Shown here one piece after another: positions 3,001 to 32,999 of a stretch of DNA of 64,000 nt (position 1 is its first letter; the number at the start of each line of letters is the position of its first letter). Under the pieces are notes generated by a model. It was not told the DNA's origin. It did not search any database and worked only from the letters and a program-made list of their open reading frames with translations. A program made the position numbers and the translations under genes. The stretch spans positions 1-64,000 of the forward strand of contig JAILGB010000009.1 in the NCBI GenBank assembly GCA_024697185.1, given 5' to 3'. The DNA comes from Opitutales bacterium (GTDB lineage Bacteria; Verrucomicrobiota; Verrucomicrobiia; Opitutales; UBA953).

Positions 3001-6000
3001 GCCTTTGATCATTCGGTCGAGTCGGGCACTTATAAATTGTTGACGGCTGGCACATTTGCCGGTGCGGATGTGAGCACTTTGGGTATCGCCAATATTTCGT
3101 TGGCAGGCAGAGTTTCGTCCGCAACATTTACAGTCGTGGACGGCACGCTTTTGCTGAACTTGGCTAAAAACGCCTCCTATACCGACCTCGTGTGGGCGGG
3201 AGATCCGGAAGGAGCGAACTGGAACAAAACAGAAACCAACTGGACGAGCGCATCGGCGGGAACGGATCCGGTTGCGTTCTCCAACGGCGACTCGGTGACA
3301 TTTAATACGACGGAGTTTGCCACTGTAGTGATTGCGGAGGATGTCAATCCTTTGGCGGTCACGCTTAACGGTGAAAATGTTCTTTTTTACGGAACAGGCG
3401 CGGAGACGGTCGATACTACCGATTTGACGGTAAATAATGCGTTGATGACGATGAATGCAGCTCTTAGGGTTTCCGGAACGGCGACATTTTCGGGCGTTGG
3501 CGGCTCCACGATCATGGGCGATTTTTATTCGACGGGAACGGTCAATGTTTCTGCAGATGCAACGTTTACCGGCAATGTCATTAATATCGCAGACCTGAAT
3601 CTTACGGCGGGAACGCTGGAAATTGGCGGTCCCGAAAACAGTGCCGCGGCAGTTGTTACAAACTTGACGGTCAGCGGCGGTGCGTTTTCGACATCGACTT
3701 TCCGTTCGATTGAGGTGGAAACACTGACGGTCAGTGGCGGCACGGCGACGATTGCGGGACCGGCCAACGCTTTGGGCACAACGACGATCGCGAGCGGTGC
3801 GGAGCTGTCCGTTACCGCGGGCTCGACGAGCGCGGCGCTGACGCCGAATGTGTCTTTGGGAACGATTTCTGTCAGAGGCGGCAGACTTAATCTGACGCAG
3901 TTTGACGACACGGCTCTCTCTACGATAAATCTCGAAGGCGGCACGCTCGCCTATACGGGACCGGATGTCTCTACAGGGCATAAGACGCTTGCCACCAATG
4001 CCAATATCTATGTCAAAGCAAACACGACGGTAGAGGCGACGACCAACCGGATGTGTTTTATCGGTAGCGGCTATGACACGATCAACTGGGCGTTTACCGA
4101 GGGCGCGACTTTGACGAAGACGGGCGCGGGAACGCTGTATTTGATCCACGGCGTAACGAGCACGACGGGGCTCGGTGATATTGTTGTCAGCGAGGGCGGA
4201 TTCCAACTTCATCAAAACGATGCGGGATCTGCGTCTTCCTTCAATATCCACAATTTGACGTTCAACGGCTCCTTGTTCTGGCAGTCGCCGAATTCCTCGT
4301 TGACGCTCGCGGGCGATTTGACGATTTCTGCGGGAACCTCGACATTCAAGGGCACGACGACGGTTGCGGGAGCGACGACGGTTACGGGCGGCACCGCTAT
4401 TTTGGATGGCACGACGACGCTCAACGGCGCGGTCGATGTCCGTGGCGGCACGCTCAAATTGGCCCGCAATATTTCCGGCGCGTCGAGTGTCCGTCTCTCG
4501 GGCGGTCAGTTATCGGTCGGCAACGAGGCGGCGCTGGCATTGAACGCGCTGACGATTGATATTGCGCTTTCGGAAAGCTATCTGCATGACGGCGGCAAGA
4601 TTGCGATCTTGGGCTATGAAGGTTCGACATTTGCGTCGGGAACGACGATTAACATTTCTAAACTGGAAACCTATATTCCCGATGAGACGGCGGGCGCCCA
4701 GCTCGTCTTCTCGATCGCGGACGCCCATTTGCGTTCCTTGGTGACGACTTCGATGCTGACCTATGCTCCGGAATGGTCGTCGCTCTGGTCCGGCGTCTAT
4801 GATGCGGCGACGGGCAATCTCACTTTGAGTTTTGTCGGATCGCATCGTGTTTTGACCTGGAACGGCGGCGCGACGGGCACATGGGATACGGCAACGGCAA
4901 TCTGGACTCCGGAGGGCGCGAGCAGCGATGTGGCGTTCTTGGCGGGCGACTTGGCGGTCTTTAATACGGCGGACGCCGTTGTGACCTTGGGCGAGGCGAT
5001 TCGCGCGCAGCGGATAACGGTTTCGGAGTCGGTGGAAATCAAAAATTCCGGCACGAACACTTACGCTTTGACGGCGAATGCGGGCGTTTCCATTGCGGCA
5101 GACAAGGCTTTAAAGTTGACGGATGTCGTCTTGACGGGAACGGTCACGGGCGATGGTAAACTTATTATAAATAATGCCGCGGCGCAGACGATTGACACGG
5201 TCAATATGCTGACCGGCGCCGTCGCGCTTGAAAAACAGGGCGCGGGCGATCTCACGGTCTCCAAGGCTCAAAGTTATACGGGCGGCACGACGCTCTCGGC
5301 GGGAACGCTCAAATTGAGCAACGCCACGGGCTTGGGCACGGGAACGGTGACTTTTGCCGGCGGCAATTTGAGTTGGCAGGGCACGACGGGCACGGTGGCA
5401 AATCAGATTGCAGCCGCTGACGGAGTGACGGCGACGGTCGAAGTCGCCAAGATGACGGGAACGCTGACTTTGTCCGATATCGCCGCCGGTGTGGCGATGG
5501 AAAAGACGGGCTCGGGCGTGCTGACGGTCACGACGGCAAACGATTTGGGCGCTTTGACGCTCTCGGCGGGAACGGTGACGCGCAGTTATGACGCCGCCGG
5601 CACCGGTTTGGGCTGGACGACGGTCAATGCCGCGGCGGGAACGACTTTAAATGTCAGCTCTGCGGGCAACCGTTCGGGCATCGTTCTTGGAAGCGGCTTT
5701 GCGGGAACGCTCGCAGTCGCGGGAACGGGCACGGGAACGGTGGATTTCGCCTTGGCGGACTCCCAGTCTCTCTCCGCTGCGACAATCACGGTGGCGACAA
5801 ATACCCGTTTGGTCGGCGGCAGCAGCTTGGCGCTCGATAGCGTCACGGTCAGCGGTGCAGGCTCATTGGATCAGTCCGGATTGACATTGACGGGCAACAA
5901 CACGCTCGGTGTCGCAGTCACGGGAACGGGAGCTGTCGGCGTTTCTTCGGGAACGACACGCTTCGGCTCGACCTTGGGCGCCGGCAATATGACGGTGGCA

Positions 6001-9000
6001 GAGGGCGCAGCGGCGACGGTTGCGGGTGCGACGACGCTCACGGGACAGCTTTCCAACAGCGGCACGGCGACCTTCTCCGGCGCGCTTTCGGCGGACAGCA
6101 TTGTGACGGCAGCCGATTCGCAAACGACGGTTACGGGCGCGGCAACACTCACGGGACAGGTTGCCAACAGCGGCACGATCGCTTTCGGCAACACGCTCTC
6201 GGCGGACAGCATGGATCTGTCGGCAGGCTCGACAACTTCGGTTACGGGCGCGGCAACGATTGCGGGAACGGTTGACCTTAACGGCACGGCGACTTTCGAT
6301 GATACGCTCTCGGCAAATTATTTGAGTGTGAGCGGCGAGACCGCTTCGCTTACGGTTGCGGGCGCGGTGACGGTCACGGAAGATATCGCGACGGGCGCCG
6401 CCACGGTGCAGTTCGACGACGCGGTTTCTGCCCAAAATCTCGGTTTTGGTGTGGATGGCGCAGGCTCGGTGACGATCGCTTCGACGCTTGATTTGACAAA
6501 CTCTTTGTCTGTCAACGGCGAATTGTCCGTCAGCGGTGCGGCAACAATCGGCAATTTGTTAGATAGTCGTGGCACCAGCACTTTTGACAGCACGCTCAGC
6601 GCAGGACGCATTTCTGTCACGGGAACGTCCCTTGAGGTCGCAGGCGCGGTAACGGTCACGGGAACGCTCAGCAACAGCGCTGTGGCGACCTTCGGTGACA
6701 CGCTCTCTGTCGGCAGTTTGACGGCGGACACGACATCGACGACAACGGTCGCGGGTGCGGTGACGGTCGAAGAAACGCTTAGAAATGACGGCGCGATGAC
6801 GCTTTCCTCCACGCTTGACACGGTTAATTTGTCTCTCGAAGCACCAACGGGAACGCTGACTTTGGGCGGTGCAACGACGGTTTCGGGCAATCTTACCGGA
6901 GCGGGCTCGATTGTCGCGGGAACGACGGATTTGACGTTCGGTCTCGCCGGTGACGCGAGCGGGTTTGCGGGCAGTATCGGCGCAGCGGACGCGGCGTTCG
7001 GCACGGTCAATCTCTCGGGAACGGCAAAAGAATTTGCGGGAACGCTCTACACGGGCGCTCTCAGTGTCACGGCGGATACGACGGTCACGGGAACGGTCAG
7101 TGCGGGAACGCTTGCCGTCTCCGGCGCGACATTGACAATCAGCACCGGCACGCTCTCGGATGTGACGACGGTGACGCTTGACAACGGCGGAGTCGCCGGC
7201 GCAAGTTTCGCCAACGGCACGACGATCACGGCGGGCGCGGGAACGACGCTTGCGGATGTGACCTTGGAGGCGGGCTCGCTTTTGACGGTCGCGACAGGAG
7301 GCACACTTTCCTTGTCGGGCACAAACACGCTCGCGGGACGCATCGAATTGACGAACAATCCCGATCCGGCGGCGGCTGTGATGACGATCGCTTCGGGAAC
7401 GACGACGATTGACCGCACGACGTTTAATTTCAATTTGAGCGAACTCGAAGAGGCGACCTATCACCTCTTTGATGTTGCGGACGGAGCGACGCTCAGCGGT
7501 TGGGATTCCCTCAACAAGAGCAATTTCTATGTCTCCGGCGTGGCGGTGACGGACACACACATCAAACTCAACCTGACGACAGCCGGCGATGTCACGATGT
7601 ATGTCGATGAGCATGCCGACCTGCTTTATGCGGGTTCGGGCGACTGGGAAATCAAGAAGGAAGGCGATACCGCCTGGGTTGATGCCGAAAGCGGTTTCAG
7701 CGCGATGTTCTGGCAGCTCGACTATGTGACGTTCGCGACGACGGATGCGCGTCTCGGCGTTGTCGGCGACATCGTCGCGAGCACTGTCACGGTCAACGAA
7801 AACGTGACCTTGACGGGACTTGACGATGAGAGCAATTCGCTGACGGTCGTGGGCGCGGTGACGGTTGCCGCGGACAAGGAGCTGATCATTGCGCTTTCTT
7901 CGGGAACGACATCGGCGTTCTCGGGAACGGTCAACGGCGGAGGTTCCGGCATCTTTACGGTCAATTACTCGGGCGCGACGGCGATGAACTGGTCGGACGC
8001 TTTTGCGGGAACGACCCTGTCAAATGTCGTTTTCAAAAAACAGGGTACGGGCGCGCTGCAAGTCGGCACGAGCGAACTCGCGAATATTTCGAAACTTAAC
8101 ATCGCCAACGGCCAGTTGATCTTTACGGTCGATTCGGACGAGAGTTTCGCAAAGGCGATCAGTGGCAGCGGCACATTGGTGAAATCCGGGACGGGAACGC
8201 TGACGATCTCGCGCAACAATTCGACATTCAACGGCAATGTGGAGGTCAAAAACGGCACCTTGACACTGGCGAACGCTTTGGCGATCGGCTCGGCGGCTTT
8301 GGCGGTCGATAGCGGAGCGGAGGCGGAACTCGCGATCTCGGAAGGCACGTTCACGAACACGGTTTCCGGCGCAGGAAAACTCTCAGTAAACCCGGGCGCG
8401 GGCGACACTTTGACGCTCGACGGTGACGGCAGCGGCTTTACGGGAGCGCTCGCAATCGCGTCGGGAACGGTAAAGTTGGCTTCGGACACTTTGTCGGCTT
8501 CGACGATTTCGGTGGCGTCGGGAGCGATCTTGGAGATGGACCGCCCGACGGTGGCTTCAACTTTGACCGGCGCGGGAACGCTCAATCTGCTCGGCGACAC
8601 GCTCATCACCTTGACCGGCGATGTCGGCACCTTTGCGGGAACAATCAATGTCGGTAACGGCGTCAGGAGCGGCATTCTCTCTCTGGACCGCTCCATTGCG
8701 GCGGCGATCAATGTCCGGGAAAATTCTTCCTTGCTCCTGGATGTCGCCGACGGCCCTGTGCTCAATCTGACAAAGACGCTCACGGCAACGGCGAGCTCCG
8801 CGCTCACAAAAACCGGCGCGGGAACGGCTTATCTGTCGGCGCAGGACAATTCCCTCCAAGTCAATACGATTGAGGTCGGGCAGGGCACCTTGCGCGTTCG
8901 CGGCGCAAACGCGATCGGCAACGACGATGTGATTGTCGCTGTTGCGGCGGGCGCGACATTCGACTTTGTCTCAGGCTCGACAATCCCGTTGTCGGCGGCT

Positions 9001-10533
9001 CCGCTGGCGGCTCCGACGATCCCGACGGCGACAGACATCCTGCCGTATGACATCACGGGCGCGGGCGAACTGCTCGTTTCCGGCGGCGGCGTCACCGCTT
9101 TGACGGGCAGCAACGACAGCACCGGCGGCATTCGCGTTGTCGGAGGCTCGACTATTCTCACGACAACGATGGACAATGTCGGCACGGGAGCGGTCAGCCT
9201 CGTAAACGGCACCTGGTATGCACAGCATGATGTCGTCGTCGGCGAAGTCAACAATGTGACGGGCGTCAGCACGGTCACGATGGGAGCGACATCGCAACTG
9301 GTCGTCGGTGCGGCAAGTTTCACGGGAACGACTTTGAACGACGTCCAAATCAATGCCGCGGGAACGGAAATCAGTATCGACATTTCGTCCCTGAGCGATC
9401 TGAACACGGTTCACGCTACCGGCGGAACGATCAATTTTGCGGGAACGATCAATATCACAAGCAGTTCCGGCATCGATCTCAACGGACAGGTGATCACGCT
9501 CTTTAGCGACACGGTCACGATCGCGGGAACGCCGTCGATTGTTGTCAACGGCAATACGGGCTATTCCTTAGTCTCCAACGGCGCCAACCTCGTCCTTTCG
9601 ATGAGCGCGGTCGTCGAAAGCTTCAATTTCGGCTATTCCTCGATGGTCGCGATGAATCGTGACGCGTTCCGCCAAAACGAACGCGCGCTCCACAACCGCA
9701 TGGAAAACCGCCGTTTTGAGACCCGCGATCTCGGCAATACGGAGTTCTTCGTTCAAATGCAGGGCTCCAAGGTTGACAACGGCAACGACAGTTCCAAGAG
9801 CGGCCGCTTTGACTATTCGACTTACGGCGCCTTTGTCGGCGGCGATACGCGACTTTCCGCGAGAACGCTTGTCGGACTTGCGCTTGGCTACGATCACGGC
9901 AAGGCGGATATTCACGGCAATCAGGGCGATATCGAAATGGACAACTACAATATGACGGCGTTCCTGTCGCAGTTGCTCGGCGATTATTGCTACGTCGAAG
10001 GCGGATTGACGATGGGCATGGCCTCGTATGAGCTTGCGCGCCGTTCGACAAACACTTCCGAGACGATCAGCGGCTACAACGCCGGCGCCTTCGCGCGCGT
10101 CGGATCGCTGGTGCCGATGAGCGATTCGCTGTCGCTTCTGCCTTACTTGGGACTCGCCGCGTATTATACAAAGACGGAGGATTTCAAAGACGGCGTTTAT
10201 GATGTGGATTCGTCGGACGCTGTCAGCCTGCAGGGAAAAGTCGGTGCGTCGCTGCGCTATGATTTTTCAATGCTCAGCTCTTACAAGTCGAGCGTCACCC
10301 TGGACGTCGCCTATGTCCATGAGTTTGGCGATGACAAACTCAAGAGCGAGGGCACAATGGGCACGACAGGCTTCAGCCGCAAGGAAGTCATCGACAACGA
10401 CAACTATCTCAGCGTCGGCGTCGAACTCAGCACCGGATTCACCTCCGGAGCGTCGGCTTACATGGGCTATTCCGCCGACATCGGCGAAGACACCGTCCAT
10501 CACGCCAACGTCGGTTTGCGCTACAAATTCTAA
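1..10533 (+). CDS. Giant autotransporter, PATR-repeat passenger with C-terminal beta-barrel (5' partial)
   Basis: The reading frame is open to the first base, so the start and export signal lie upstream; 3510 residues are visible. The passenger is Gly/Thr/Ser/Ala-rich and built of short beta-strand repeats. Typical PATR units (GxLTKxGxGTLTLSGxNTYTGGTT type) are seen near 2716-2856, 5224-5360, 8170-8310 and 8800-8940. Four tryptophan-rich boundary segments (V/L-W-x-G...W...NW) near visible residues 284, 1063, 1617 and 2541 divide it into modules. From about 9606 the last 300 residues look like an autotransporter beta-domain: alternating strands, aromatic belts and a terminal Phe (RYKF). Expected role is a surface-exposed or released adhesin-like protein whose barrel sits in the outer membrane. 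GCGGGAACG and close variants occur here at very high density, mostly encoding A/S/T-G-T. The ligand is unknown. Confidence 0.93.
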   Translation, partial: DGQWNFATGQTQKYTFTGSLENYSGNFSMSNAGSGNGGSRLQFGNGGTLSSGTNAISGTGSISVNANTSLIYNYASGDLTIGNSSITANGGLTFQGGANYTLNAATTANNLTVSAGSLAVGNTTSVTGTLTNSAALTVNSGTLTAGTVNSTGTLTLGGGSLSATTLTSSSITVNSGTLTAGTLTSTGTITNAGTIDLSTTSVTLSSAITNTGTVTVNTGTIFELSNLTVSENAYTVISGGTVANWSALTKANFLLDGIALGGRQTIDVSTAGVVTIIGDAPQNMVWSGAQSTVWDYSTANWTLGDAAGLFNSQDNAIFGKADARAVLAESILAGTMTVTANTTVTASDTHTLTAKSLSLSNNAKLSLDGTVIFEAATIESGATLASSGTTTFSGTNTINGALDIVAGTTTLNLETTTGTMTATVAEGATLDLGTATTNGATLNSAVSGAGTLKIAYTNSSHNFIFGNGSLSNFTGTLDYTGNFDLSNASATKINAGATLKFSSNAGSTNSMWSYNATTIAQNVLLGNAYVLSASNGGLTFGGDVTALAAVTARTNITFNGNTRFDNKLTLESGTTTINGASNVFGGISVTGSSVLVFNADTTINGAFSSTDNSGDSRSVTIKEGVTVETNSFNNNYGLGTLAISGQLNVSGAMSLSTGSRTNAIKGPGTLQVGGSITAANYGTYNFTDGLTISAAALESHGPATVNVGDGTNATLFTVGRLEYGDNNGQATSALNVNANAVLKVTSSADDSSYKSTAFLLGEWNCDSTLTVAGTVLAENAKLRLGDSGATVTLNEGGKLAFKGVGYAAKTGTRGTSSFTLNLNSGSTLVLGESGLVAEKTTTTVNLKGGTVGMSADTTISAPLTLAAGTNTSFQTQKYAYSDFDIALNASDTTGGAMTVSGVISGDGALTKIGVGTLTLSGANTYTGGTTISGGTLVAANASAFGTGTVNVQANASLSGNVTVGSLTTAAHAILDFGTASTETAMITATGTITLDAGTIFAFDHSVESGTYKLLTAGTFAGADVSTLGIANISLAGRVSSATFTVVDGTLLLNLAKNASYTDLVWAGDPEGANWNKTETNWTSASAGTDPVAFSNGDSVTFNTTEFATVVIAEDVNPLAVTLNGENVLFYGTGAETVDTTDLTVNNALMTMNAALRVSGTATFSGVGGSTIMGDFYSTGTVNVSADATFTGNVINIADLNLTAGTLEIGGPENSAAAVVTNLTVSGGAFSTSTFRSIEVETLTVSGGTATIAGPANALGTTTIASGAELSVTAGSTSAALTPNVSLGTISVRGGRLNLTQFDDTALSTINLEGGTLAYTGPDVSTGHKTLATNANIYVKANTTVEATTNRMCFIGSGYDTINWAFTEGATLTKTGAGTLYLIHGVTSTTGLGDIVVSEGGFQLHQNDAGSASSFNIHNLTFNGSLFWQSPNSSLTLAGDLTISAGTSTFKGTTTVAGATTVTGGTAILDGTTTLNGAVDVRGGTLKLARNISGASSVRLSGGQLSVGNEAALALNALTIDIALSESYLHDGGKIAILGYEGSTFASGTTINISKLETYIPDETAGAQLVFSIADAHLRSLVTTSMLTYAPEWSSLWSGVYDAATGNLTLSFVGSHRVLTWNGGATGTWDTATAIWTPEGASSDVAFLAGDLAVFNTADAVVTLGEAIRAQRITVSESVEIKNSGTNTYALTANAGVSIAADKALKLTDVVLTGTVTGDGKLIINNAAAQTIDTVNMLTGAVALEKQGAGDLTVSKAQSYTGGTTLSAGTLKLSNATGLGTGTVTFAGGNLSWQGTTGTVANQIAAADGVTATVEVAKMTGTLTLSDIAAGVAMEKTGSGVLTVTTANDLGALTLSAGTVTRSYDAAGTGLGWTTVNAAAGTTLNVSSAGNRSGIVLGSGFAGTLAVAGTGTGTVDFALADSQSLSAATITVATNTRLVGGSSLALDSVTVSGAGSLDQSGLTLTGNNTLGVAVTGTGAVGVSSGTTRFGSTLGAGNMTVAEGAAATVAGATTLTGQLSNSGTATFSGALSADSIVTAADSQTTVTGAATLTGQVANSGTIAFGNTLSADSMDLSAGSTTSVTGAATIAGTVDLNGTATFDDTLSANYLSVSGETASLTVAGAVTVTEDIATGAATVQFDDAVSAQNLGFGVDGAGSVTIASTLDLTNSLSVNGELSVSGAATIGNLLDSRGTSTFDSTLSAGRISVTGTSLEVAGAVTVTGTLSNSAVATFGDTLSVGSLTADTTSTTTVAGAVTVEETLRNDGAMTLSSTLDTVNLSLEAPTGTLTLGGATTVSGNLTGAGSIVAGTTDLTFGLAGDASGFAGSIGAADAAFGTVNLSGTAKEFAGTLYTGALSVTADTTVTGTVSAGTLAVSGATLTISTGTLSDVTTVTLDNGGVAGASFANGTTITAGAGTTLADVTLEAGSLLTVATGGTLSLSGTNTLAGRIELTNNPDPAAAVMTIASGTTTIDRTTFNFNLSELEEATYHLFDVADGATLSGWDSLNKSNFYVSGVAVTDTHIKLNLTTAGDVTMYVDEHADLLYAGSGDWEIKKEGDTAWVDAESGFSAMFWQLDYVTFATTDARLGVVGDIVASTVTVNENVTLTGLDDESNSLTVVGAVTVAADKELIIALSSGTTSAFSGTVNGGGSGIFTVNYSGATAMNWSDAFAGTTLSNVVFKKQGTGALQVGTSELANISKLNIANGQLIFTVDSDESFAKAISGSGTLVKSGTGTLTISRNNSTFNGNVEVKNGTLTLANALAIGSAALAVDSGAEAELAISEGTFTNTVSGAGKLSVNPGAGDTLTLDGDGSGFTGALAIASGTVKLASDTLSASTISVASGAILEMDRPTVASTLTGAGTLNLLGDTLITLTGDVGTFAGTINVGNGVRSGILSLDRSIAAAINVRENSSLLLDVADGPVLNLTKTLTATASSALTKTGAGTAYLSAQDNSLQVNTIEVGQGTLRVRGANAIGNDDVIVAVAAGATFDFVSGSTIPLSAAPLAAPTIPTATDILPYDITGAGELLVSGGGVTALTGSNDSTGGIRVVGGSTILTTTMDNVGTGAVSLVNGTWYAQHDVVVGEVNNVTGVSTVTMGATSQLVVGAASFTGTTLNDVQINAAGTEISIDISSLSDLNTVHATGGTINFAGTINITSSSGIDLNGQVITLFSDTVTIAGTPSIVVNGNTGYSLVSNGANLVLSMSAVVESFNFGYSSMVAMNRDAFRQNERALHNRMENRRFETRDLGNTEFFVQMQGSKVDNGNDSSKSGRFDYSTYGAFVGGDTRLSARTLVGLALGYDHGKADIHGNQGDIEMDNYNMTAFLSQLLGDYCYVEGGLTMGMASYELARRSTNTSETISGYNAGAFARVGSLVPMSDSLSLLPYLGLAAYYTKTEDFKDGVYDVDSSDAVSLQGKVGASLRYDFSMLSSYKSSVTLDVAYVHEFGDDKLKSEGTMGTTGFSRKEVIDNDNYLSVGVELSTGFTSGASAYMGYSADIGEDTVHHANVGLRYKF

Positions 10534-10606: not shown

Positions 10607-12538
10607 GTGTATAACTTTGAAAACATAAAACTCCGCTTCGGTCCGCGTGAACTGTTTAAGGATATCACGGGAACGATCGGCGCGCGGGAACGCATCGGGC
10701 TCGTCGGGCAAAACGGCGCGGGAAAATCGACCCTGCTCAAAATCATCGCGGGAACGCAAGATTATGACGCGGGAACGATCACTGCCGCCAAGGCCGCAAG
10801 CATCGCCTATTTGCCCCAGGACGGCATCGAGTGCGCGGGAACGACACTCTACGGAGAGGTTGAAAAAGCCTTTGACGACGTCCTCTCGCTCCAAGACAAG
10901 ATCGCCGCGGAGGAAAAATCCCTGCAGTCTCTGACCGCGGGAACGCCGGACTATCTCGACAAACTGGCGCTCATCAACGAATGGGAAGAACGGCTCGAAC
11001 ACGCGGAAGCCTCAAAAATGCGTTCCCGGATCGAGAGCGTTTTGCTGGGACTCGGTTTTAAAATCGAAGATATGACGCGCGACACGGGCGAGTTTTCTGG
11101 CGGTTGGCAGATGCGAATCGCCTTGGCGAAACTCTTGCTGCGGGAACCCTCCATCCTGCTGCTCGACGAACCGACCAACCACCTCGACGTCGAATCACAG
11201 GACTGGCTCGAAAACTGGCTCAAACGCTATGCGGGCAGCGTTGTCATCGTCTCGCACGACCGGGCTTTCCTGGATACGATTTGCACGCGGATTTTCGCCC
11301 TCGAAAACGGCAGACTCGACACTTACGAGGGAAACTATTCCTATTACGAAAAAACCTCGCGGGAACGCCGGGAGGCTCTGCGCCACGCGGCGGAAAACCA
11401 GGCGCGGGAAATCGCCAAGACGGAGGATTTTATCGAACGCTTCCGCTACAAGGCGAGCAAGGCGGCACAAGTGCAGTCACGCATCAAACAGCTCGACAAA
11501 GTCGAACGCATTTATTTTGAAGAGGAAAACAACGACGAAATCGAATTCTCGTTCCCGCCCGGCATCCAAAGCGGGCAAAAAGTCGTGACATTGGCGGGAG
11601 TGGCAAAATCTTACGGAACGCTCAAGGTTTTTAATAAAGTCGATTTGCAGATCGAACGTGGCGAACGCATCGCGGTCGTCGGAGTCAACGGCGCCGGCAA
11701 GTCCACATTGATCCGGATGCTCTCCGGAGAGGAAGTCCTCAGCGCGGGAACGCGGACGGTCGGCAACAATGTCGTCATCTCCTATTTCGCCCAACATCAG
11801 GCAAAAGAACTCGATCCGACAAAAACCGTTCTCGAAACCGTCAACGATGTCGCCGTCGGTTTGGGCAACACAAAATTGCGTTCCCTTCTCGGCGCGTTTT
11901 TGTTCCGCGGGGAAGACGTCTTCAAACCCGTAAATGTTTTGTCCGGCGGCGAAAAAAATCGGCTGGCGCTCGCCAAAATGCTTTTGCGACCTTTCAATTT
12001 CCTGATCCTCGACGAACCGACAAACCACCTCGATATGCGCTCAAAAGACGTGCTCTGCCGCGCACTCAAGGAATACGCGGGAACGGTAATCGTCGTCTCG
12101 CACGACCGCGCGTTTTTGGACCCGCTCGTCAACAAGGTGATCGAAGTGCGCAACGGCGGAATCCGCGTATTTAGCGGGAACGTCTCCTATTATCTCGAAA
12201 AAACAAAAGACGAGCGCGTCAGCGTTCCCGCCGTCGAAAAACGTCGCGAAGACAACGGAAAAACGGGAACGGCAGTTTCCGCAAAAGACAAACGCCGCGC
12301 CGTCGCCGAACGCAGCAAGGCCCTGGCGCCACTCAAAAAAGAACTCAAATCCGTCGAGGAAAAAATCGCAAGCCTCGAAGCCGAACAGGCGGAGATCGAA
12401 ACCGCGATGGCAAATCCGGATTTTTACAGCCGCGGCGAAGCGACAAAAAAAGAGATGTTGCGCTACGAAACGCTAAAAGCAGAAATCGCCGAACTCTATG
12501 AACGCTGGGAACAGATTTCCCTCTCGCTCGAAGCCTAA
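10607..12538 (+). CDS. ABC-F family ATPase
   Basis: 643 residues with two ABC ATPase domains and no membrane segment, as in the ABC-F translation-factor family (Uup/EttA/YdiF type). Domain 1 has Walker A GQNGAGKST at residues 34-42, signature FSGGWQMR and Walker B LLLDEPTNHLD. Domain 2 has GVNGAGKST, signature LSGGEKNRLALA and LILDEPTNHLD. A charged linker separates the domains, and the C-terminus is a Lys/Glu-rich coiled coil as in Uup-type members. Family members act on ribosomes in the cytoplasm; which subfamily is not certain. GTG start; the spacing to the -10 box supports it. Confidence 0.93.
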   Translation: MYNFENIKLRFGPRELFKDITGTIGARERIGLVGQNGAGKSTLLKIIAGTQDYDAGTITAAKAASIAYLPQDGIECAGTTLYGEVEKAFDDVLSLQDKIAAEEKSLQSLTAGTPDYLDKLALINEWEERLEHAEASKMRSRIESVLLGLGFKIEDMTRDTGEFSGGWQMRIALAKLLLREPSILLLDEPTNHLDVESQDWLENWLKRYAGSVVIVSHDRAFLDTICTRIFALENGRLDTYEGNYSYYEKTSRERREALRHAAENQAREIAKTEDFIERFRYKASKAAQVQSRIKQLDKVERIYFEEENNDEIEFSFPPGIQSGQKVVTLAGVAKSYGTLKVFNKVDLQIERGERIAVVGVNGAGKSTLIRMLSGEEVLSAGTRTVGNNVVISYFAQHQAKELDPTKTVLETVNDVAVGLGNTKLRSLLGAFLFRGEDVFKPVNVLSGGEKNRLALAKMLLRPFNFLILDEPTNHLDMRSKDVLCRALKEYAGTVIVVSHDRAFLDPLVNKVIEVRNGGIRVFSGNVSYYLEKTKDERVSVPAVEKRREDNGKTGTAVSAKDKRRAVAERSKALAPLKKELKSVEEKIASLEAEQAEIETAMANPDFYSRGEATKKEMLRYETLKAEIAELYERWEQISLSLEA

Positions 12539-12542
12539 TCCT

Positions 12543-12564
12543 CGTTCCCGCGGGAACGTTTTTT
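12543..12564 (+). terminator. Palindromic terminator CGTTCCCGCGGGAACG plus T run
   Basis: A perfect 16-bp palindrome (12543-12558), two motif copies sharing their central bases, is followed by six T residues, directly after the ABC-F stop codon. Three more partial or full motif copies follow to 12611. The hairpin would have a 6-bp stem and 4-nt loop, so it may be modest. Confidence 0.6.
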
Positions 12565-12619
12565 GCGGGAACGCGGAGACGGGAACGGGAATAGCGTGCC
12601 GCGGGAACGGGAAAAGTGC

Positions 12620-12648
12620 TTGACTTGGGGAGGGTTTTTGAGGATACT
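12620..12648 (+). promoter_or_regulatory. Sigma70-type promoter at the edge of the Rhs island
   Basis: TTGACT (12620-12625), 17-bp spacer, GATACT (12643-12648). It would transcribe the first Rhs remnant (ATG 12714, preceded by AGGTG) and the AT-rich genes behind it. Unlike most promoters here it has a 5' leader of about 60 nt. Confidence 0.55.
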
Positions 12649-12713
12649 GAATGAGGTTTCCGGCAACCCCGCCGGAATAGCGATTTGTTAAAAACAATAG
12701 AGACAGGTGATTT

Positions 12714-12815
12714 ATGTCTGATCCGGATTTTCATCCGAGGACTCCGTTCCCGGGGACATGGGTTCCGACGGGCAACGTTCCCGCAAATCCGCTCCAGTGG
12801 TCCTCCGAAATATAG
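12714..12815 (+). pseudogene. Rhs core C-terminal remnant
   Basis: A 33-codon frame ending in NVPANPLQWSSE and then a stop. From family knowledge, this resembles the segment of Rhs/YD-repeat proteins just before the conserved 'Y-D-x-E-L-G-L' block that precedes the variable toxin tip. The frame breaks exactly there. It keeps a plausible ribosome site (AGGTG) and a promoter upstream, but is far too short to be a working Rhs protein. A short unrelated peptide is the alternative. Confidence 0.5.
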
Positions 12816-12964
12816 AAACAACGGTGAATATTTATGGTAGATATTCAAATGAAGTTGTTAAAAAACATGAAGAATATCATTTAAATTTATGGTTAAACAC
12901 ATTTTATAATTTTGAATCAGTAGTTTTGGGGGTAGCTTTTAAGATTGTTTATGTAAAAATTAAA
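12816..12964 (+). other. AT-rich fragment encoding an HExxH-containing peptide (possible orphan toxin tip)
   Basis: An open frame that starts within the Rhs remnant (in a different frame) runs through here into the next gene without a stop. It encodes YSNEVVKKHEEYHLNLW, with an HEEYH (HExxH) motif, then an aromatic-rich tail ending VYVKIK. HExxH is typical of zinc metallopeptidases, but five residues are weak proof. Position (directly after an Rhs core end, before a secreted small protein) suggests the end of a displaced Rhs toxin tip. Confidence 0.35.
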
Positions 12965-13729
12965 ATGAAAAAGTTTATTTTAATTTTATTTTTGTTGATG
13001 ACAAATTTTTTATTTGCCATAGAATTTTCTATCGATAATCACAGTGTTTACGGATCTGATTTGTATCAAAAATTAAAGAATTTGTCACAAGATGGTTTTT
13101 TTTCAAAGGACGGGAGAAATGCTTTTGAAAGAAAACATTTTTCTGAGGAAAATCCGTATTTTTGGAATCCGTTAATTTTTAGTAATTTATTTACATTAAA
13201 TTTACAACGTCTTCCTGATCTTCAAGAAGATTGTTTTCAAATTTATTTTATCCCTTATCAAAAATCGCTGGCATTATCGTTCCCGGATTTAAAATTAAGG
13301 TATTTTGAATTTGAAAAATCAGGCAATTGGGGCTGGGGGACAGGATTGGGAGTTGGTAATAGAAAAATTATCGAAAAGAAAATAAATGTGACTGAAAAAT
13401 TAATTTGTCCCGGCGGTTTCAAATCTGATTTTCTATTGGCAGAAGAATTTGATTTTAATGTTGTTCGCGTTTTAACACGATATAATGAGTCGGTTCTAAC
13501 AATTTCGTTTGATTCCAAAGATGAGGCATTTTTTAGGTTTATAAAATCATTGTATGCGGGAAAAGAATTTAAATTTTTGAATTCTTTTGATTCTTTTCCG
13601 GATAATGATTCAATCATTATTGAACTCCAAAAAGATTTGTCCAAAACGGAACGATATATTTTACGTTTTTCAGTTTCAAAGAAAATGATTCCCGAGCAAA
13701 TACTTTTAAAATATCCGAATTTAAAGTAA
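12965..13729 (+). CDS. Secreted protein of unknown function in the Rhs island
   Basis: 254 residues. The ATG at 12965 was chosen because it starts a clear signal peptide (MKKFILILFLLMTNFLFA); the frame is open further upstream, but that part has a different character. The mature part is rich in Phe, Lys, Asp and Ser, with no motif I recognise. The gene is strongly AT-rich, unlike the flanking core genes, which suggests transfer. First of three tandem small exported or membrane proteins. An orphan immunity protein of an Rhs toxin is a reasonable guess from context only. Confidence 0.65.
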   Translation: MKKFILILFLLMTNFLFAIEFSIDNHSVYGSDLYQKLKNLSQDGFFSKDGRNAFERKHFSEENPYFWNPLIFSNLFTLNLQRLPDLQEDCFQIYFIPYQKSLALSFPDLKLRYFEFEKSGNWGWGTGLGVGNRKIIEKKINVTEKLICPGGFKSDFLLAEEFDFNVVRVLTRYNESVLTISFDSKDEAFFRFIKSLYAGKEFKFLNSFDSFPDNDSIIIELQKDLSKTERYILRFSVSKKMIPEQILLKYPNLK

Positions 13730-13762
13730 TCTCATACAAGGAAAGTGTGTATCAAAGTCAAA

Positions 13763-14158
13763 ATGAAGTTTAGATCTTTACTTATTATAATTTTATTTTT
13801 AACAAACGTTGTTAGTTTAGGAGCTGAAGAAACCATTTCGCTCTTTAACGCAATATTAAAGAACGATTCTTGTCAAATAGAAGCACTAAAAAATAAAAAG
13901 GAATTTTTTAAGGATATTTTCAATGGACGCGCACATTTTGTAGGAAGTGGTCGAGGAGATGTAACAATACAATCTCAAAAAAATTGTACGATTGTAGCAA
14001 ATTTTTTAATAACCAATACCACGAGTTTAAGGTCTTTATTCTATCATTTATATCCCAATAAATGGAATATAACACAACCAGGGTGGATGTTTTTAAATTG
14101 GACACAAAAATATAACAGGGAAGAAGAATATCATTGTAAGTATAATTCGAGGATATAA
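13763..14158 (+). CDS. Small secreted protein of unknown function in the Rhs island
   Basis: 131 residues from ATG 13763; a GTG six codons upstream is also possible. The N-terminus is a signal peptide (MKFRSLLIIILFLTNVVSLGA). The rest has two Cys and clustered Trp (KWNITQPGWMFLNW) and no family I can name. Base composition is AT-rich like its neighbours. The short stretch before the start (IKVK-MKF) resembles that before the previous gene (VKIK-MKK), hinting at a common origin of the two junctions. Possible immunity-type protein by context only. Confidence 0.6.
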   Translation: MKFRSLLIIILFLTNVVSLGAEETISLFNAILKNDSCQIEALKNKKEFFKDIFNGRAHFVGSGRGDVTIQSQKNCTIVANFLITNTTSLRSLFYHLYPNKWNITQPGWMFLNWTQKYNREEEYHCKYNSRI

Positions 14159-14167
14159 AAATATTAA

Positions 14168-14635
14168 ATGTCAGATAAAAATAATTTTAGGAATTTTTGT
14201 TCGTTCGTTAAAATATTTCTTATAGGATTTATTTTAATTTTGAATTTGAGCCCGCTTACGCTTCAACAAGATAAGGTTTATTTTAATAGGACAACATATC
14301 TTTTACAATTTGAATCGGGCGATTTTTATCTTTGTTCCAACATTAACGACAATATATTTGAAGGTATTATTACGGATATTTTTTATGAAAAAAAAGAAGC
14401 AAAAATATATTCAAATATAATTAAAAATTATCGTGCAGAAAAAGATGGGATATATTGTTACGATTTAAACACAGAAAAAACAAAATTTTTAAATGAGGAA
14501 AACCGGACAAAACTAATTCCTGTGGAACAATTTTTTGATTATGAATTAAAAAACCAAAATGAAACATTGTTTTTTGTTTTCAATGCATGGTTATTAATTT
14601 GTTTTGTTTCATTTAAACGTCGCTTCCTGTTATGA
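14168..14635 (+). CDS. Small membrane protein of unknown function in the Rhs island
   Basis: 155 residues, with hydrophobic segments near residues 13-30 and at the C-terminus (about 137-150) around a hydrophilic, Asn/Lys/Glu-rich domain that would lie in the periplasm. It begins 9 bp after the previous gene, so the three AT-rich genes probably form one transcript. No recognised domain. Membrane-anchored small proteins of this kind are common as immunity proteins, but nothing in the sequence proves that. Confidence 0.6.
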   Translation: MSDKNNFRNFCSFVKIFLIGFILILNLSPLTLQQDKVYFNRTTYLLQFESGDFYLCSNINDNIFEGIITDIFYEKKEAKIYSNIIKNYRAEKDGIYCYDLNTEKTKFLNEENRTKLIPVEQFFDYELKNQNETLFFVFNAWLLICFVSFKRRFLL

Positions 14636-14662
14636 TACAAAAAACACCAGCAATTAACCAAG

Positions 14663-14992
14663 ATGATAACTTACGAGTCTTCGCGTGACTTGCCGGTGGA
14701 AATCGCTTATAATGACAGCGTGAGCACCCTTCTCGCAAAACGTAATTATTCTTACGACTCGCTCGGGCGTGTTGTCTCGCGCACGCAGACGCGCGGCGCG
14801 GGATCGCCATGGGCAGATGCGTTCGGGCATAATTCCCGCTCGGAACTCACTTCCGCGACTCTCGGGAACGACAATTTTGTTTGGCGAATATATAATGAAG
14901 ATCTTATGGATGAAAAACAAGAGGAACTTGATATAGTCGAATCGAAGATTTTTAATGCAAAGAAGGAGTTAGACAAATGTATAAAAAAATAA
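14663..14992 (+). pseudogene. Rhs core remnant joined to a short AT-rich tip
   Basis: The 109-codon frame starts inside a YD-repeat region: it encodes RNYSYDSLGRVVSRTQTR and then FGHNSRSELTSATLG, both typical of Rhs core repeats. After NDNFVW the composition switches abruptly to AT-rich, and the frame ends with a charged helix (DEKQEELDIVESKIFNAKKE). The last 16 bases overlap the start of the next gene, the usual toxin-tip/immunity arrangement. It lacks the N-terminal shell and the end of the core, so it is a displaced or deleted fragment. Confidence 0.7.
14684..14796 (+). repeat. Rhs core direct repeat, copy 1
   Basis: A 113-bp stretch collinear with 15524-15636, with about 12 differences by eye (near 89% identity) and no gaps. 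Both copies encode the same Rhs segment around AKRNYSYDSLGRVVSRTQTR. The differences are mostly synonymous, so the copies diverged while coding. Such repeats can recombine to swap cassettes. Confidence 0.9.
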
Positions 14993-15495
14993 TCATACTT
15001 TTTTCTTTTTTAATTTTAGCGGTTTTCGGTTGCTTGTATTATTGTTTTTTTCATATGACTTATGTTGAAACAAGAGAGATGTTTCAATTTAGTTTTGATG
15101 AATACTCGGATGAGTATTACAAACAGTGCTATAAACCATATATCAAGGAAGTATATGCACGATTTATAAGTCAAGAATCAAAATATACGGAATCGATGGG
15201 TTACCCTGTGAAATTTAAACTTAAAGAGTCCAACCCTTTCTTCAGCACACACCATTCCGTTGAGGGATTCTGTATTTCGGTTGAATATCCGACGACTCTA
15301 TATAATTCCGTCTATGGTTCGTTTCACGAATATATTTTGACACTCGAAAGACTAAGCGATTTTTTTGAGGGGGAATTACGGCTTTTATGGTCGTTGGGCG
15401 TATATCCGTTTGTCGTTCCGATAGATCCTGCCGAGGAACCTTCACTTTATTTTTTGCCAACTCGTGAGGATTGGAATCTTGCGCCCAAGAGATAA
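14977..15495 (+). CDS. Membrane-anchored protein of unknown function, possible Rhs immunity protein
   Basis: 172 residues with an N-terminal membrane segment (residues 4-23, IIILFSFLILAVFGCLYYC) and a Tyr/Phe/Glu-rich outer domain. A good Shine-Dalgarno AAGGAG (14963-14968) lies 8 bp before the ATG, unlike most core genes here. The start overlaps the end of the Rhs remnant, and a second Rhs copy follows, so the gene sits between two 113-bp direct repeats. That placement, not homology, suggests an immunity gene kept after loss of its toxin. Confidence 0.65.
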   Translation: MYKKIIILFSFLILAVFGCLYYCFFHMTYVETREMFQFSFDEYSDEYYKQCYKPYIKEVYARFISQESKYTESMGYPVKFKLKESNPFFSTHHSVEGFCISVEYPTTLYNSVYGSFHEYILTLERLSDFFEGELRLLWSLGVYPFVVPIDPAEEPSLYFLPTREDWNLAPKR

Positions 15496-15523
15496 TCTTG
15501 TCAAAACGTCAACAAACACACAT

Positions 15524-15636
15524 CGTGACTTGCCGACAGAAATCGCTTATAATGGCAGCGTGAGCAAGCTCCTCGCAAAACGGAATTATTCTTACGATTC
15601 GCTTGGGCGTGTCGTCTCGCGCACGCAGACACGCGG
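15524..15636 (+). repeat. Rhs core direct repeat, copy 2
   Basis: Collinear with 14684-14796 over 113 bp at about 89% identity. It lies just downstream of the 172-residue gene and ends where a CGCGGGAACG motif copy begins. Confidence 0.9.
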
Positions 15637-15650
15637 GAACGCTGCGTCTT
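15524..15650 (+). pseudogene. Third Rhs core remnant
   Basis: Encodes RDLPTEIAYNGSVSKLL and RNYSYDSLGRVVSRTQTR, the same YD-repeat segment as at 14663, then degenerates into unrelated sequence at a motif copy. There is no credible start and no downstream core or tip. The open frame (15464-15685) starts inside the end of the previous gene in another frame, so it is not a gene of its own. Confidence 0.7.
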
Positions 15651-15695
15651 GCTTTTCAATTGCTAAAAATGGCGGGAACGCATAAAATTGAAAAC

Positions 15696-16244
15696 ATGGA
15701 AGAAACCGCCGTCCCAGAAACACCGCAAAACGAGCAGGGGAATTCCGTTCCTGCGGAATCCGTCGATGTGATTGAGTATAAAATTACGCCCAATCGTCTG
15801 ACGACATATGTTCATTATCGGCAGTTTTGGCCGGTTTTGATTGTGATGTTTGTGGTGCTGACGACGATTTTTTGCGTTTGTGACAAATGGCTCTGGCCGT
15901 TAGTTTTGCTTTCGCTTGCCGTTTTTTTCGGGCTTTATAGCATTTCCACCCGCATCGCTGCTCAACGGATTGCTTCGACAAAATACACGCGCAACGGCAA
16001 CACGATTTCCGCCTCCAATACTTATTTCGGTTTTTATTCCAAAAAGGCTATTGAGTTGGAGCAGGTTTCGCGTATTTCGCTGATTCAGACGCCGCTGATG
16101 AAATTTTGTGATGTTTGGGCGATCGAGTTTATGACGACCGCCAATACGCGTGTGCAGATCTATGGCATCAAAGGTGCTGCGGATGTGCATCGCCAACTGG
16201 TGGAGGCGCGCGCCGTCGCTCTTGCGGCGATTCATCACAAGTAA
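15696..16244 (+). CDS. PH-like domain membrane protein
   Basis: 182 residues from ATG 15696 (MEETAVPETP); an in-frame ATG at 15669 would add nine residues, and neither has a Shine-Dalgarno site. An acidic, VPAES-containing N-terminal tail is followed by two membrane segments (about residues 49-64 and 69-86). The cytosolic part (YTRNGNTISASN...ISLIQTP...WAIEFMTT...IYGIKGAADVHRQL) has the layout of bacterial PH-like domains (bPH2/YdbT type), judged by pattern only. It ends two bases before the ABC ATPase gene, so the two are probably co-expressed. Confidence 0.6.
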   Translation: MEETAVPETPQNEQGNSVPAESVDVIEYKITPNRLTTYVHYRQFWPVLIVMFVVLTTIFCVCDKWLWPLVLLSLAVFFGLYSISTRIAAQRIASTKYTRNGNTISASNTYFGFYSKKAIELEQVSRISLIQTPLMKFCDVWAIEFMTTANTRVQIYGIKGAADVHRQLVEARAVALAAIHHK

Positions 16245-30126: not shown

Positions 30127-31089
30127 ATGGCTCTGGCGATTAGAAATCCAAATTGGCCGGAGGCGGAATGGGATGTCTCGGGCGCATTTTCGTGCGACCG
30201 GGAACTCCTTTTGTTTCACGACTTTTTTTCGCAAGTCTATGGCGAGCGGCTTTTGAGCACCGTCCACGGCGCGCCGCTTTGTTTGTGGAACTCCGGAAGA
30301 GTTTTGCCGAAACTGATTTGCAGTCCCGAGCAGATGCGCGATGCCGGGTTGGCATACGCCAAGCGCGGGATCCCGATCGATTTGACTTTTTCCAACCATC
30401 TGATCAAGGGCGATGCGCTCAAAGACATCACCTGCAACGCGCTTTTGAAATTTGTCGAGCGCAACAATCCCAGCGAAAAAAACGCCGTGATTACAGCCTC
30501 GGATGAACTTTACGAGCATATCCGCAAAAATTATCCCCGGCTTAAAAACGTTTCCTCCATCGTCAAGGTCAGCGTTGAGAACGGTCGCGGCAAATTGGAT
30601 TATTACCGTCGCCTGGCGGAGCGTTATGACAAGGTGATGATTCATCCGGATGACGCGTGGAACTATGATTTGCTCGAACAGTTGGAAGACAAATCGCGCT
30701 ATGAAATCCTCATCAACGAATATTGTGTTCGCGGCTGCAAAATCCGTCCGCTGCATTATCAGACGCTCTCAAACCTTTCGATAAACTATTTCGGTTACGC
30801 CAATTCTAAGTTTGAAGAGCTTTTTGCCAATAACGGCTGTTCCAATTTGAACCATCTGATGACGAGCGAGGATCGCGGGACGGCGGCATGTTCGATAGAG
30901 GAGGTCAAAAAGCTCTATGAGATGGGCTTTAGGAAATTTAAATTGCAGGGGCGCGGCTCGATGAATGCGGGCGTGACGATTTTCGATCTCCTGCGCATCG
31001 TTTTGCGGGACGACCCGCCTGATGAAAATGTGATGCAACGGATCAAGTTGCAGTTTATTGAAGCCTTGTCAACTTTGGAGCCGGTATAA
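30127..31089 (+). CDS. U32-like protein of unknown function, paralogue A
   Basis: 320 residues. INEYCVRGCKIRPLHYQTLSNL resembles the Cys-bearing 'VNE-C-x-x-x-C-x-x-R-x-x-H' segment of the peptidase U32/UbiU-UbiV family, and the barrel-like pattern KVMIHPDDAWNYDLLEQL...EVKKLYEMGFRKFKLQGR is also in keeping. Judged by pattern only, so the family is tentative. A clear paralogue follows at once. It starts 15 bp after purD and is probably co-transcribed with it. Confidence 0.55.
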   Translation: MALAIRNPNWPEAEWDVSGAFSCDRELLLFHDFFSQVYGERLLSTVHGAPLCLWNSGRVLPKLICSPEQMRDAGLAYAKRGIPIDLTFSNHLIKGDALKDITCNALLKFVERNNPSEKNAVITASDELYEHIRKNYPRLKNVSSIVKVSVENGRGKLDYYRRLAERYDKVMIHPDDAWNYDLLEQLEDKSRYEILINEYCVRGCKIRPLHYQTLSNLSINYFGYANSKFEELFANNGCSNLNHLMTSEDRGTAACSIEEVKKLYEMGFRKFKLQGRGSMNAGVTIFDLLRIVLRDDPPDENVMQRIKLQFIEALSTLEPV

Positions 31090-31090
31090 A

Positions 31091-32224
31091 ATGGGAGAAT
31101 CTTTTGTCGTATCGAGCGCGAGTTCGATTTTGAAAAACACCGCGGTCCCGCAGCCGGGCGCCGGCGGGAACGCCGCGTCCGCCGCATCGGAATCGGTGCC
31201 GTCGATTGATTTTATCGGCAAGTCAACATTTGCCCCCGAAGCCGAGTGGACGGTCGGCGGCGCGTTTATTTACGATGGCGCGATCAAGCAGTTTTGCCGT
31301 TATGCCAACAATTTTGTGCCGTCGATGCATTTGAAATGTATTTCGGGCGCTCCCGCGTGCTTGTGGACGCTCGACTGGTTTGCTGCGCGTCCGATGGTTT
31401 CGCCGCAAGCGATTGTTTCGACGATTCGCGAACATTTGCAAAACCGCTGCAGTTTCCAACTGGATTTTGACAATCCTCATCTCGTTCCCGCAGATTGTGA
31501 GGACGCGATCGGCAATATGCTTTTGCAGGCTTGCACGACTTTGCCGGGCGGAGAGGTTTATATCTGCGTCGCGAGCGAATGCTTGGCAAGCCATGTCCGT
31601 TCCCGTTATCCGTCTTTCAAACTGATTGCCGGTGAAAATTACGTCGTTGATAAAAATGCGCGCGGGAACGTCGATTTTTATTTGTCGTCGCTCAAAATTT
31701 TTGATCGTGTCGTCGTCCATCCGGAAGATGCGATCGATTTGGATTTTATGAAAAAATTGCTTGCGGCTGGCGTTCCCGCGGAGCGTTTGGAGGTCGTGGT
31801 CAACGATACTTGCCTGCGTGCCTGTCCTTGTCGCCGGGAACATTTGAAGGCTTTGTCGGACTTGCGCCGTTCTCCTTATGATGCTTTGCCGCGCCAAGCC
31901 CGCCAGACGGCGCTCGCGCAGGCAAAATGCGAAGATGTGACTCCGACGGGACCGCAAACGCCGGGCGAACATGCCGCGATTTTGACGCGAACGGAGATTC
32001 GGGCGCTCTATGCTTTGGGAATCCGCCATTTTCGTCTGCAGGCGACAAAACTGCGCAACGAATTGACTTTGAGCTGGCAGATGGGCGAATGGTTTTGCAG
32101 CGACGATCCCGCGTTGTGGAACAAGAAGGCGGCGTTTGTCAACGGTGCCGTCGTCAATGTGCTTTTGCCGCAAGCGCCGGTGAAAACGGGATTGGAGCCT
32201 TTTGTAAAGCGCAAATATGATTGA
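31091..32224 (+). CDS. U32-like protein of unknown function, paralogue B
   Basis: 377 residues from ATG 31091, right after the stop of paralogue A. Shared segments: VVNDTCLRACPCRREHLKALSDL (A: INEYCVRGCKIRPLHYQTLSNL), RVVVHPEDAIDLDFMKKL (A: KVMIHPDDAWNYDLLEQL) and LYALGIRHFRLQ (A: LYEMGFRKFKLQ). It has an extra Cys (C-x3-C-x-C) and a low-complexity, Ala/Gly-rich N-terminus with a PAGGNAA run caused by a motif copy. Two adjacent, diverged U32-like genes recall UbiU/UbiV, which work as a pair; that parallel is inference. It overlaps tatD by 8 bp. Confidence 0.55.
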   Translation: MGESFVVSSASSILKNTAVPQPGAGGNAASAASESVPSIDFIGKSTFAPEAEWTVGGAFIYDGAIKQFCRYANNFVPSMHLKCISGAPACLWTLDWFAARPMVSPQAIVSTIREHLQNRCSFQLDFDNPHLVPADCEDAIGNMLLQACTTLPGGEVYICVASECLASHVRSRYPSFKLIAGENYVVDKNARGNVDFYLSSLKIFDRVVVHPEDAIDLDFMKKLLAAGVPAERLEVVVNDTCLRACPCRREHLKALSDLRRSPYDALPRQARQTALAQAKCEDVTPTGPQTPGEHAAILTRTEIRALYALGIRHFRLQATKLRNELTLSWQMGEWFCSDDPALWNKKAAFVNGAVVNVLLPQAPVKTGLEPFVKRKYD

Positions 32225-32999
32225 TACGCATTGCCATCTGGACAGTTTTGTCGCGGCAGGCATTGCGGATGAAGTCGTGGCTCGCGCCCGGGCTGCGGGT
32301 GTCGAAAAACTCCTGCTTGCGGGAACGCGCGCGGAGGATTGGCCGCTTTACCGGCAGCTCGCCGGGCGTTTTGCGGGAACGTGTTTTTATGCGGTCGGAC
32401 TTCATCCGGAATATTGCGAGCGCGATGATTGGCGGGAACAAATCTCACAGTTGCCGGACTTTGTCGCGGGAGCGACGGCGATCGGGGAAATCGGTCTGGA
32501 TGAACATTATATGCCGAAGTCCGCGGAGCAGGCGGCTGTTTTGCGTTCCCGCCAAGAACAGATGTTCCGGGAGCAGTTGGCGATTGCAAAGACGGCGCGC
32601 CTGCCGGTCATCATTCACGCGAGAGAGGCGTTTGACCGCGCTGTCGCGATGATTGACGAGAGCGGTGTCGATTGGCGAAAAGTCGTTTTCCACTGTTTTT
32701 CGGAAACGCCCGAGCAGGTCAAAATTTTAAACGCGCGCGGCGGCAGGGCGTCGTTTACGGGAACGATCACTTACAAAAATGCGCAAAATGTCAGGGATTC
32801 TGCCTTAGCGCAAGGTTTGGAGCGTTTGATGCTTGAGACGGACGCGCCCTATCTCGCTCCCGGCAAAATGCGCGGCAAAACTTGCGAGCCGGCGTTTGTC
32901 GTGCAGACGGCGGCGTTTGTCGCCGAGCTTTTTGGCGTTCCCGTGGAGGAGATTGACGCGCGGACGACTGCGAACGCCTGCGAATTTTTCGGCTTTTAA
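32217..32999 (+). CDS. tatD: TatD family metal-dependent hydrolase
   Basis: 260 residues. Opening MIDTHCHLDSF carries the HxH metal ligands; EIGLDEHY, PVIIHAREA, VFHCFSE and LETDAPYLAP are the other family motifs. TatD-type enzymes act as DNases or deacylases in the cytoplasm. Start overlaps the upstream gene by 8 bp, so translation is coupled. Confidence 0.93.
   Translation: MIDTHCHLDSFVAAGIADEVVARARAAGVEKLLLAGTRAEDWPLYRQLAGRFAGTCFYAVGLHPEYCERDDWREQISQLPDFVAGATAIGEIGLDEHYMPKSAEQAAVLRSRQEQMFREQLAIAKTARLPVIIHAREAFDRAVAMIDESGVDWRKVVFHCFSETPEQVKILNARGGRASFTGTITYKNAQNVRDSALAQGLERLMLETDAPYLAPGKMRGKTCEPAFVVQTAAFVAELFGVPVEEIDARTTANACEFFGF

Follow-up and report, generated by a model that had tools for sequence, protein, structure and literature searches.

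A tandem pair of U32-like barrel proteins with a conserved Cys/His site in one member and a decayed site in the other

The gene pair and its surroundings

The window, a stretch of 64,000 nucleotides from the genome of a gut bacterium of the order Opitutales (contig JAILGB010000009.1), contains two adjoining genes arranged head to tail on the forward strand, with purD upstream and tatD downstream. Gene A (positions 30127-31089) encodes a protein of 320 amino acids with a predicted U32-like barrel, which we propose, from its sequence and model, to be a catalytic subunit. Gene B (31091-32224) encodes a paralogue of A with 377 amino acids, which may be a degenerate partner, judging by its residues. 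The preferred start of B is the ATG at 31091, one nucleotide past the stop codon of A; a version of 388 amino acids from a TTG start, given in the list of open reading frames, is less likely. The gap between purD and A is 15 nucleotides, and B overlaps tatD (32217-32999) by 8 nucleotides. Compared with A, B has an additional N-terminal extension of about 50 residues, modelled with low confidence, and a C-terminal tail.

The two proteins share a common descent. They align over 294 amino acids with 80 identical residues (27% identity, E 2e-34). An earlier note on this DNA had described them as tandem paralogues with a common Cys motif and His, alike in three collinear segments; the paralogy and the motif are borne out, but as the alignment covers most of the length and is far beyond chance, the three segments were an understatement. 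The same note had pointed to the purD and tatD flanks and to the lack of a nearby ubiquinone gene. This agrees with a Pfam scan of six neighbours (MazG, PurD, TatD, LptF/LptG, a MoCF domain protein, and ferrochelatase), among which there is no ubiquinone gene. Likewise, no aromatic-pathway gene adjoins A or B in the window.

Pairing, descent, and fold of the two proteins

With A as the query, matches were found in eight of 57 related genomes. These are all eight genomes of the window's genus, with two matches each; no match came from the 29 genomes of the family's other genera or from the 20 in the rest of the order. A profile of the pair (alignment A3, 16 sequences of both proteins) gave matches in 16 of 286 genomes sampled from the class and 31 of 387 sampled from the phylum, and revealed pairs in one additional genus (g50) of the same class. 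Outside the two genera, each matching genome of the phylum sample had a single match. Those in G568 (E 2e-56) and in G451 and G498 (E 2e-20) are clear, and all the others are weak. We examined the matches of G568, G451, G498, G547, and G295, of which the one in G295 (locus L040) looks like an unrelated TrpF-like barrel.

Within g50, 57 of 76 genomes match, at 130 places. These include 64 pairs of neighbouring genes on the same strand, spread over 56 genomes; eight of the genomes contain two pairs each. In every one of the 64 pairs the first gene is A, which scores better than B. No solitary full-length A or B was found in this genus, as the two places outside the pairs are short and match only in part. 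The stop codon of A and the ATG of B overlap as ATGA in 12 of the 15 g50 loci examined, which come from 12 genomes; in the remaining three loci, about 10 to 27 nucleotides separate the two genes. The co-occurrence of the two genes, which the earlier note had proposed as a check, thus holds in 8/8 genomes of the window's genus and in 56 of the 57 matching g50 genomes. The neighbouring genes of the pair vary between species. For example, seven of the 15 g50 loci (L056, L058, L062-L065, and L069) have metK within 300 nucleotides after B, in the same orientation; it overlaps B by 4 nucleotides in L062 and L064, and is not so placed in the window.

An unrooted tree of 59 proteins (23 A, 23 B, and 13 others) places A and B on opposite sides with 100/100 support, and each group has its own fork (98/99 for the 23 A proteins and 100/100 for the 23 B proteins). 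When the 23 pairs are compared with one another, the identities among A proteins correlate with those among B proteins (0.95), and A is more conserved than B in 252 of the 253 non-independent comparisons. The mean identity between A and B within a pair is 24%. By these sequence comparisons, the pair behaves as one old unit, in which B is evolving faster.

AlphaFold2 models, built from 12 sequences for A and 11 for B, predict an eight-stranded barrel for A (pLDDT 80.8, pTM 0.83) and a similar barrel for B (pLDDT 74.9, pTM 0.75). The top structure match of both is 5d88, the U32 peptidase Mk0906, with Z 16.9, rmsd 3.8, and 227 aligned residues for A (next match 12.3), and Z 17.2, rmsd 7.6, and 237 aligned residues for B (next match 12.5). 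The A model also matches 5d88 by Foldseek (E 1.3e-5). As 5d88 leads the next match, and so other barrels, by over 4 Z units in each case, both predicted models have the U32-type fold that the earlier note had supposed.

Profile comparisons also connect the family with canonical U32 proteins. When alignment A10, which comprises 23 sequences of A proteins and single-gene relatives, was compared by hhalign with 23 canonical U32 domains, including E. coli UbiU, UbiV, TrhP, and RlhA, the probability was 95.6 (E 1.2e-8, score 69.0), or 96.8 under other settings, against scores of at most 18.0 for 30 column shuffles, 12.2 for the reversed alignment, and 11.4 for metK. The earlier note's suggestion of a profile search thus led to a link between the wider family and the canonical hydroxylases, which depends on the depth of the alignments: the eight A proteins of the genus alone gave a probability of 6.5, the wider family against only four canonical proteins 21.0, and B against the same four 0.6.

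A scores 15.3 bits (E 0.012) against the U32 family PF01136, below its cut-off of 22.4 bits, and B has no match; only two of the 16 proteins of alignment A3 match this family at any score. NCBIfam, searched with six proteins, returned two weak matches far under the cut-off, and PHROGs returned weak matches to families without assigned function, of which phrog_1458 matches seven of the 16 members (best E 1.1e-3); a relative from Lachnospira eligens (L082) also has a weak match there (E 2.3e-3). PADLOC gave zero matches for A or B, and a sequence search of the PDB gave four unrelated matches with E 0.069 or worse. Since neither protein has a curated Pfam or NCBIfam name, such genes pass as hypothetical.

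The Cys/His site and its loss in B

The motif of A, N197-E-Y-C200-x3-C204-x2-R207-x2-H210 (30715-30756, forward strand), lies directly after barrel strand 7, which comprises residues 192-195 of the model. The corresponding stretch of B, identified from the alignments, is N238-D-T-C241-x3-C245-x2-R248-x2-H251 (31802-31843, forward strand), and both thus have a C-x3-C followed by a His six residues past the second Cys. A third Cys, absent from the earlier note's list, is common to both proteins. In A it is C238 (codon 30838-30840, forward strand), 33 residues on from the C-x3-C, in a low-confidence loop with pLDDT below 50 on either side; in B it is C280 (codon 31928-31930, forward strand), which is replaced by Ser in one of the eight B proteins of the window's genus.

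All four residues, C200, C204, H210, and C238, are present in each of the 23 A proteins from the window's genus and g50. In alignment A10, which is gapped around C238, exactly three Cys are invariant, and they are C200, C204, and C238. At position 210, 20 rows have His and three have Cys, as counted by eye, a replacement that would be expected of a metal ligand. Another residue, C65, is Cys in 8/8 A proteins of the window's genus and Arg in 15/15 of those from g50, and is therefore not a general ligand. The residues conserved in all 23 A proteins lie mostly after barrel strands in the model, namely P50, W54, G57, and R58 after strand 2, N90 after strand 3, S144 after strand 5, H173 after strand 6, N197, E198, C200, R202, and C204 after strand 7, and Q274, G275, and R276 after strand 8. 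Barrel enzymes carry their active sites at the ends that follow the strands.

The site of B has fared differently. The B proteins of the window's genus keep the equivalents of C200 and C204 in 8/8 cases and those of H210 and C238 in 7/8 each. In g50, only four of 15 B proteins, two of them near-identical, have all four residues; part or all of the site is gone in the other 11, and the equivalent of C204 is missing in 11 of the 15. Arg58, Ser144, and Arg276 are missing in all 23 B proteins, and W54, N197, D198, and G267 are retained in all 23. This pattern indicates that B has been preserved as a protein, not as a copy of the active site of A. Conservation of the Cys residues among orthologues, on which the earlier note had staked its proposal, therefore stands for A (23/23) and fails for B (4/15 in g50).

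Relation to known U32 systems and possible function

The U32 family represents a recently found O2-free route of hydroxylation, in which the role of the clusters is described as unresolved (PMC11574389). According to published work (PMC6747719, PMC6599085, PMC11574389, PMC10470549), UbiUV takes part in O2-independent hydroxylation of ubiquinone precursors, and TrhP and RlhA take part in O2-independent RNA hydroxylation for which prephenate is required. The published motifs are CX6CX16CX38C for UbiU and CXnCX12CX3C for UbiV (PMC6747719), and CX6CX15CX3/4C for the U32 oxidases (PMC6747719, PMC11574389).

Like UbiU and UbiV of E. coli, A and B are two adjoining paralogous U32-barrel proteins, and a C-x3-C also ends the UbiV motif. 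In contrast to UbiU and UbiV, however, their Cys spacing matches neither motif, no ubi gene is found among the six neighbours, the site is incomplete in 11/15 B proteins of g50, and both proteins lie under the Pfam U32 cut-off. TrhP and RlhA differ in being single genes with CX6CX15CX3C, and A does not contain the U32 oxidase motif. Nonetheless, in the profile alignment C200 of A falls opposite the first cluster Cys of TrhP and RlhA, C238 opposite the fourth, and K272-x-x-G-R opposite their K-x-E-G-R. The second canonical Cys is matched by C204 in one profile alignment, but not in another. E193 of A lies opposite E162 of TrhP, an essential residue (PMC6599085); it is Glu in only 14/23 A proteins, which counts against the enzyme proposed below. 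The motif is also distinct from that of radical SAM proteins. Whereas the latter is CX3CX2C, A has C-x3-C-x2-R, with Arg where the last Cys of that motif would stand, and neither A nor B has a Pfam radical SAM match.

On this basis, A is most likely a metal-dependent, probably Fe-S, oxidase with B as its degenerate partner. The fuller proposal, that the two form an obligate two-subunit U32-barrel enzyme in which the metal site of A is catalytic and B supports an O2-independent oxidation, draws on sequences, models, and analogy, and we give it somewhat less than an even chance. We favour such an asymmetric arrangement because the site has decayed in B and is conserved in A, and because U32 proteins are linked to hydroxylation. 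The barrel of A would bind a metal, in all likelihood as an Fe-S cluster, with C200, C204, and C238 as ligands; H210, replaced by Cys in some relatives, might be the fourth. B, an old duplicate that would be produced together with A, no longer has such a site or is in the course of losing it, and may bind the substrate or stabilize the complex. The analogy with UbiUV, RlhA, and TrhP would point to an oxidation or hydroxylation that needs no O2, in which prephenate might be the oxygen donor. Points against the proposal are the Pfam scores under the cut-off, the dependence of the profile link on alignment depth, the poorly modelled loop around C238, the C-x3-C that B retains in the window's genus, and the lack of an adjoining aromatic-pathway gene.

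The reading of the earlier note, a symmetric heterodimer like UbiU/UbiV with an Fe-S cluster in both subunits and both needed, is unlikely, as the site is intact in 23/23 A proteins versus 4/15 B proteins of g50. It is consistent with the near-complete B site in the window's genus, and UbiU and UbiV each bind one [4Fe-4S] cluster (PMC6747719). The near-identity of two of the four complete g50 sites, the loss of further barrel-face residues from every B protein, and the unlike Cys spacing speak against it, and a four-Cys cluster in each subunit is not supported. We find it similarly hard to favour a C-x3-C-x5-H...C site that binds zinc or another single metal, in which case the pair would be a hydrolase, a lyase, or structural. 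Three Cys and one His are also a usual set of zinc ligands, and the canonical four-Cys motif is missing, but the nearest relatives by fold and profile are U32 proteins, and Fe-S clusters have been demonstrated in UbiU and UbiV.

Even less probable is that A and B work apart, each in its own oligomers, and are merely co-transcribed. Their strong divergence would suit this arrangement; on the other hand, the invariant order of the 64 g50 pairs, the lack of lone full-length genes, and the frequent ATGA overlaps all oppose it. A true peptidase, as the name of the U32 family implies, is very improbable. The family name is its sole argument, together with the label 'Peptidase' on the top viral structure match, and the U32 members whose function is reported in the papers cited here act in hydroxylation.

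Returning to the asymmetric enzyme, the host genome of A and B contains two further, separate canonical U32 genes and encodes chorismate mutase. The pair is therefore additional to the canonical U32 proteins, and a source of prephenate exists, which allows prephenate-dependent hydroxylation by A and B. A more specific version would have a site-differentiated Fe-S cluster in A alone, bound by three Cys and one His or Cys, with B as a dead substrate-binding barrel; the prephenate-dependent hydroxylation would act on a substrate other than ubiquinone or the known RNA sites, and the pair would belong to a wide, unnamed U32-like branch that extends across gut bacteria and contigs labelled viral. 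As a whole, this version is doubtful. A branch of this kind, with other ligands and with an active barrel naturally paired to an inactive one, would help to show which residues are catalytic and what the second barrel is for. We found no description of the pair in the open-access literature, where searches on U32 proteins and prephenate yielded only studies of known members and reviews.

Single-gene relatives occur in Lachnospira eligens, Treponema saccharophilum, three faecal 'phage' records, and IMG/VR contigs. They are similar to A in having the C-x3-C-x5-[H/C] ... C signature, W-x-x-G-R, and K-x-x-G-R, but differ from the pair in that no partner of the B clade was seen, although the contig of L089 carries a tandem pair of its own kind with a third copy nearby. 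A common unnamed cluster is present in two IMG/VR contigs (L089:95-6308, 113,740 bases; L079:365-7318, 144,568 bases). It contains two radical SAM-like genes, one of which passes the Pfam cut-off while the others fall below it, along with at least one U32-like gene and a protein that bears a DHHHD motif. The same gene run includes DAHP synthase in L089 and chorismate mutase in L079 (the contig of L078-L080), and these two cases hint at prephenate. A search for these two enzymes in the window and loci L018-L123 (minus L025-L054) gave no further neighbour case; its match in L096 is the genome's own chorismate mutase locus.

A quinone substrate is conceivable. All eight genomes of the window's genus have a UbiA-family gene, and none of them has a match to the futalosine family PF02621. 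As for oxygen, 13 of the 76 g50 genomes give no cytochrome bd match, and each of these carries the pair; cytochrome bd is present in all 19 genomes that lack the pair (Fisher p 0.03, ignoring phylogeny). We give this link little weight, since it is uncorrected for phylogeny and the pair and cytochrome bd occur together in 8/8 genomes of the window's genus.

Several minor observations were made along the way. The Lachnospira eligens relative (L082:7881-8798), annotated as hypothetical, lies on a megaplasmid 24 nucleotides past cobyric acid synthase, at the end of a run of cobalamin genes. Another relative, on a 173-kb IMG/VR contig (L087:3992-4858), reads as two successive frames. A further U32-like protein of the phylum (L075:23-1042) has its own C-x3-C-P...H motif and matches PF01136 under the cut-off (E 0.01). 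Elsewhere in the window, positions 12001-16000 have a G+C content of 0.38, compared with 0.50-0.60 in the other 4-kb blocks, and are possibly a foreign stretch; the low-G+C open reading frames at 12758-13729, 14168-14635, and 14977-15495 have no Pfam or PADLOC match. At positions 85-10533 there is an open frame of 3482 amino acids with passenger-associated transport repeats (PF12951) of the kind found in autotransporters.
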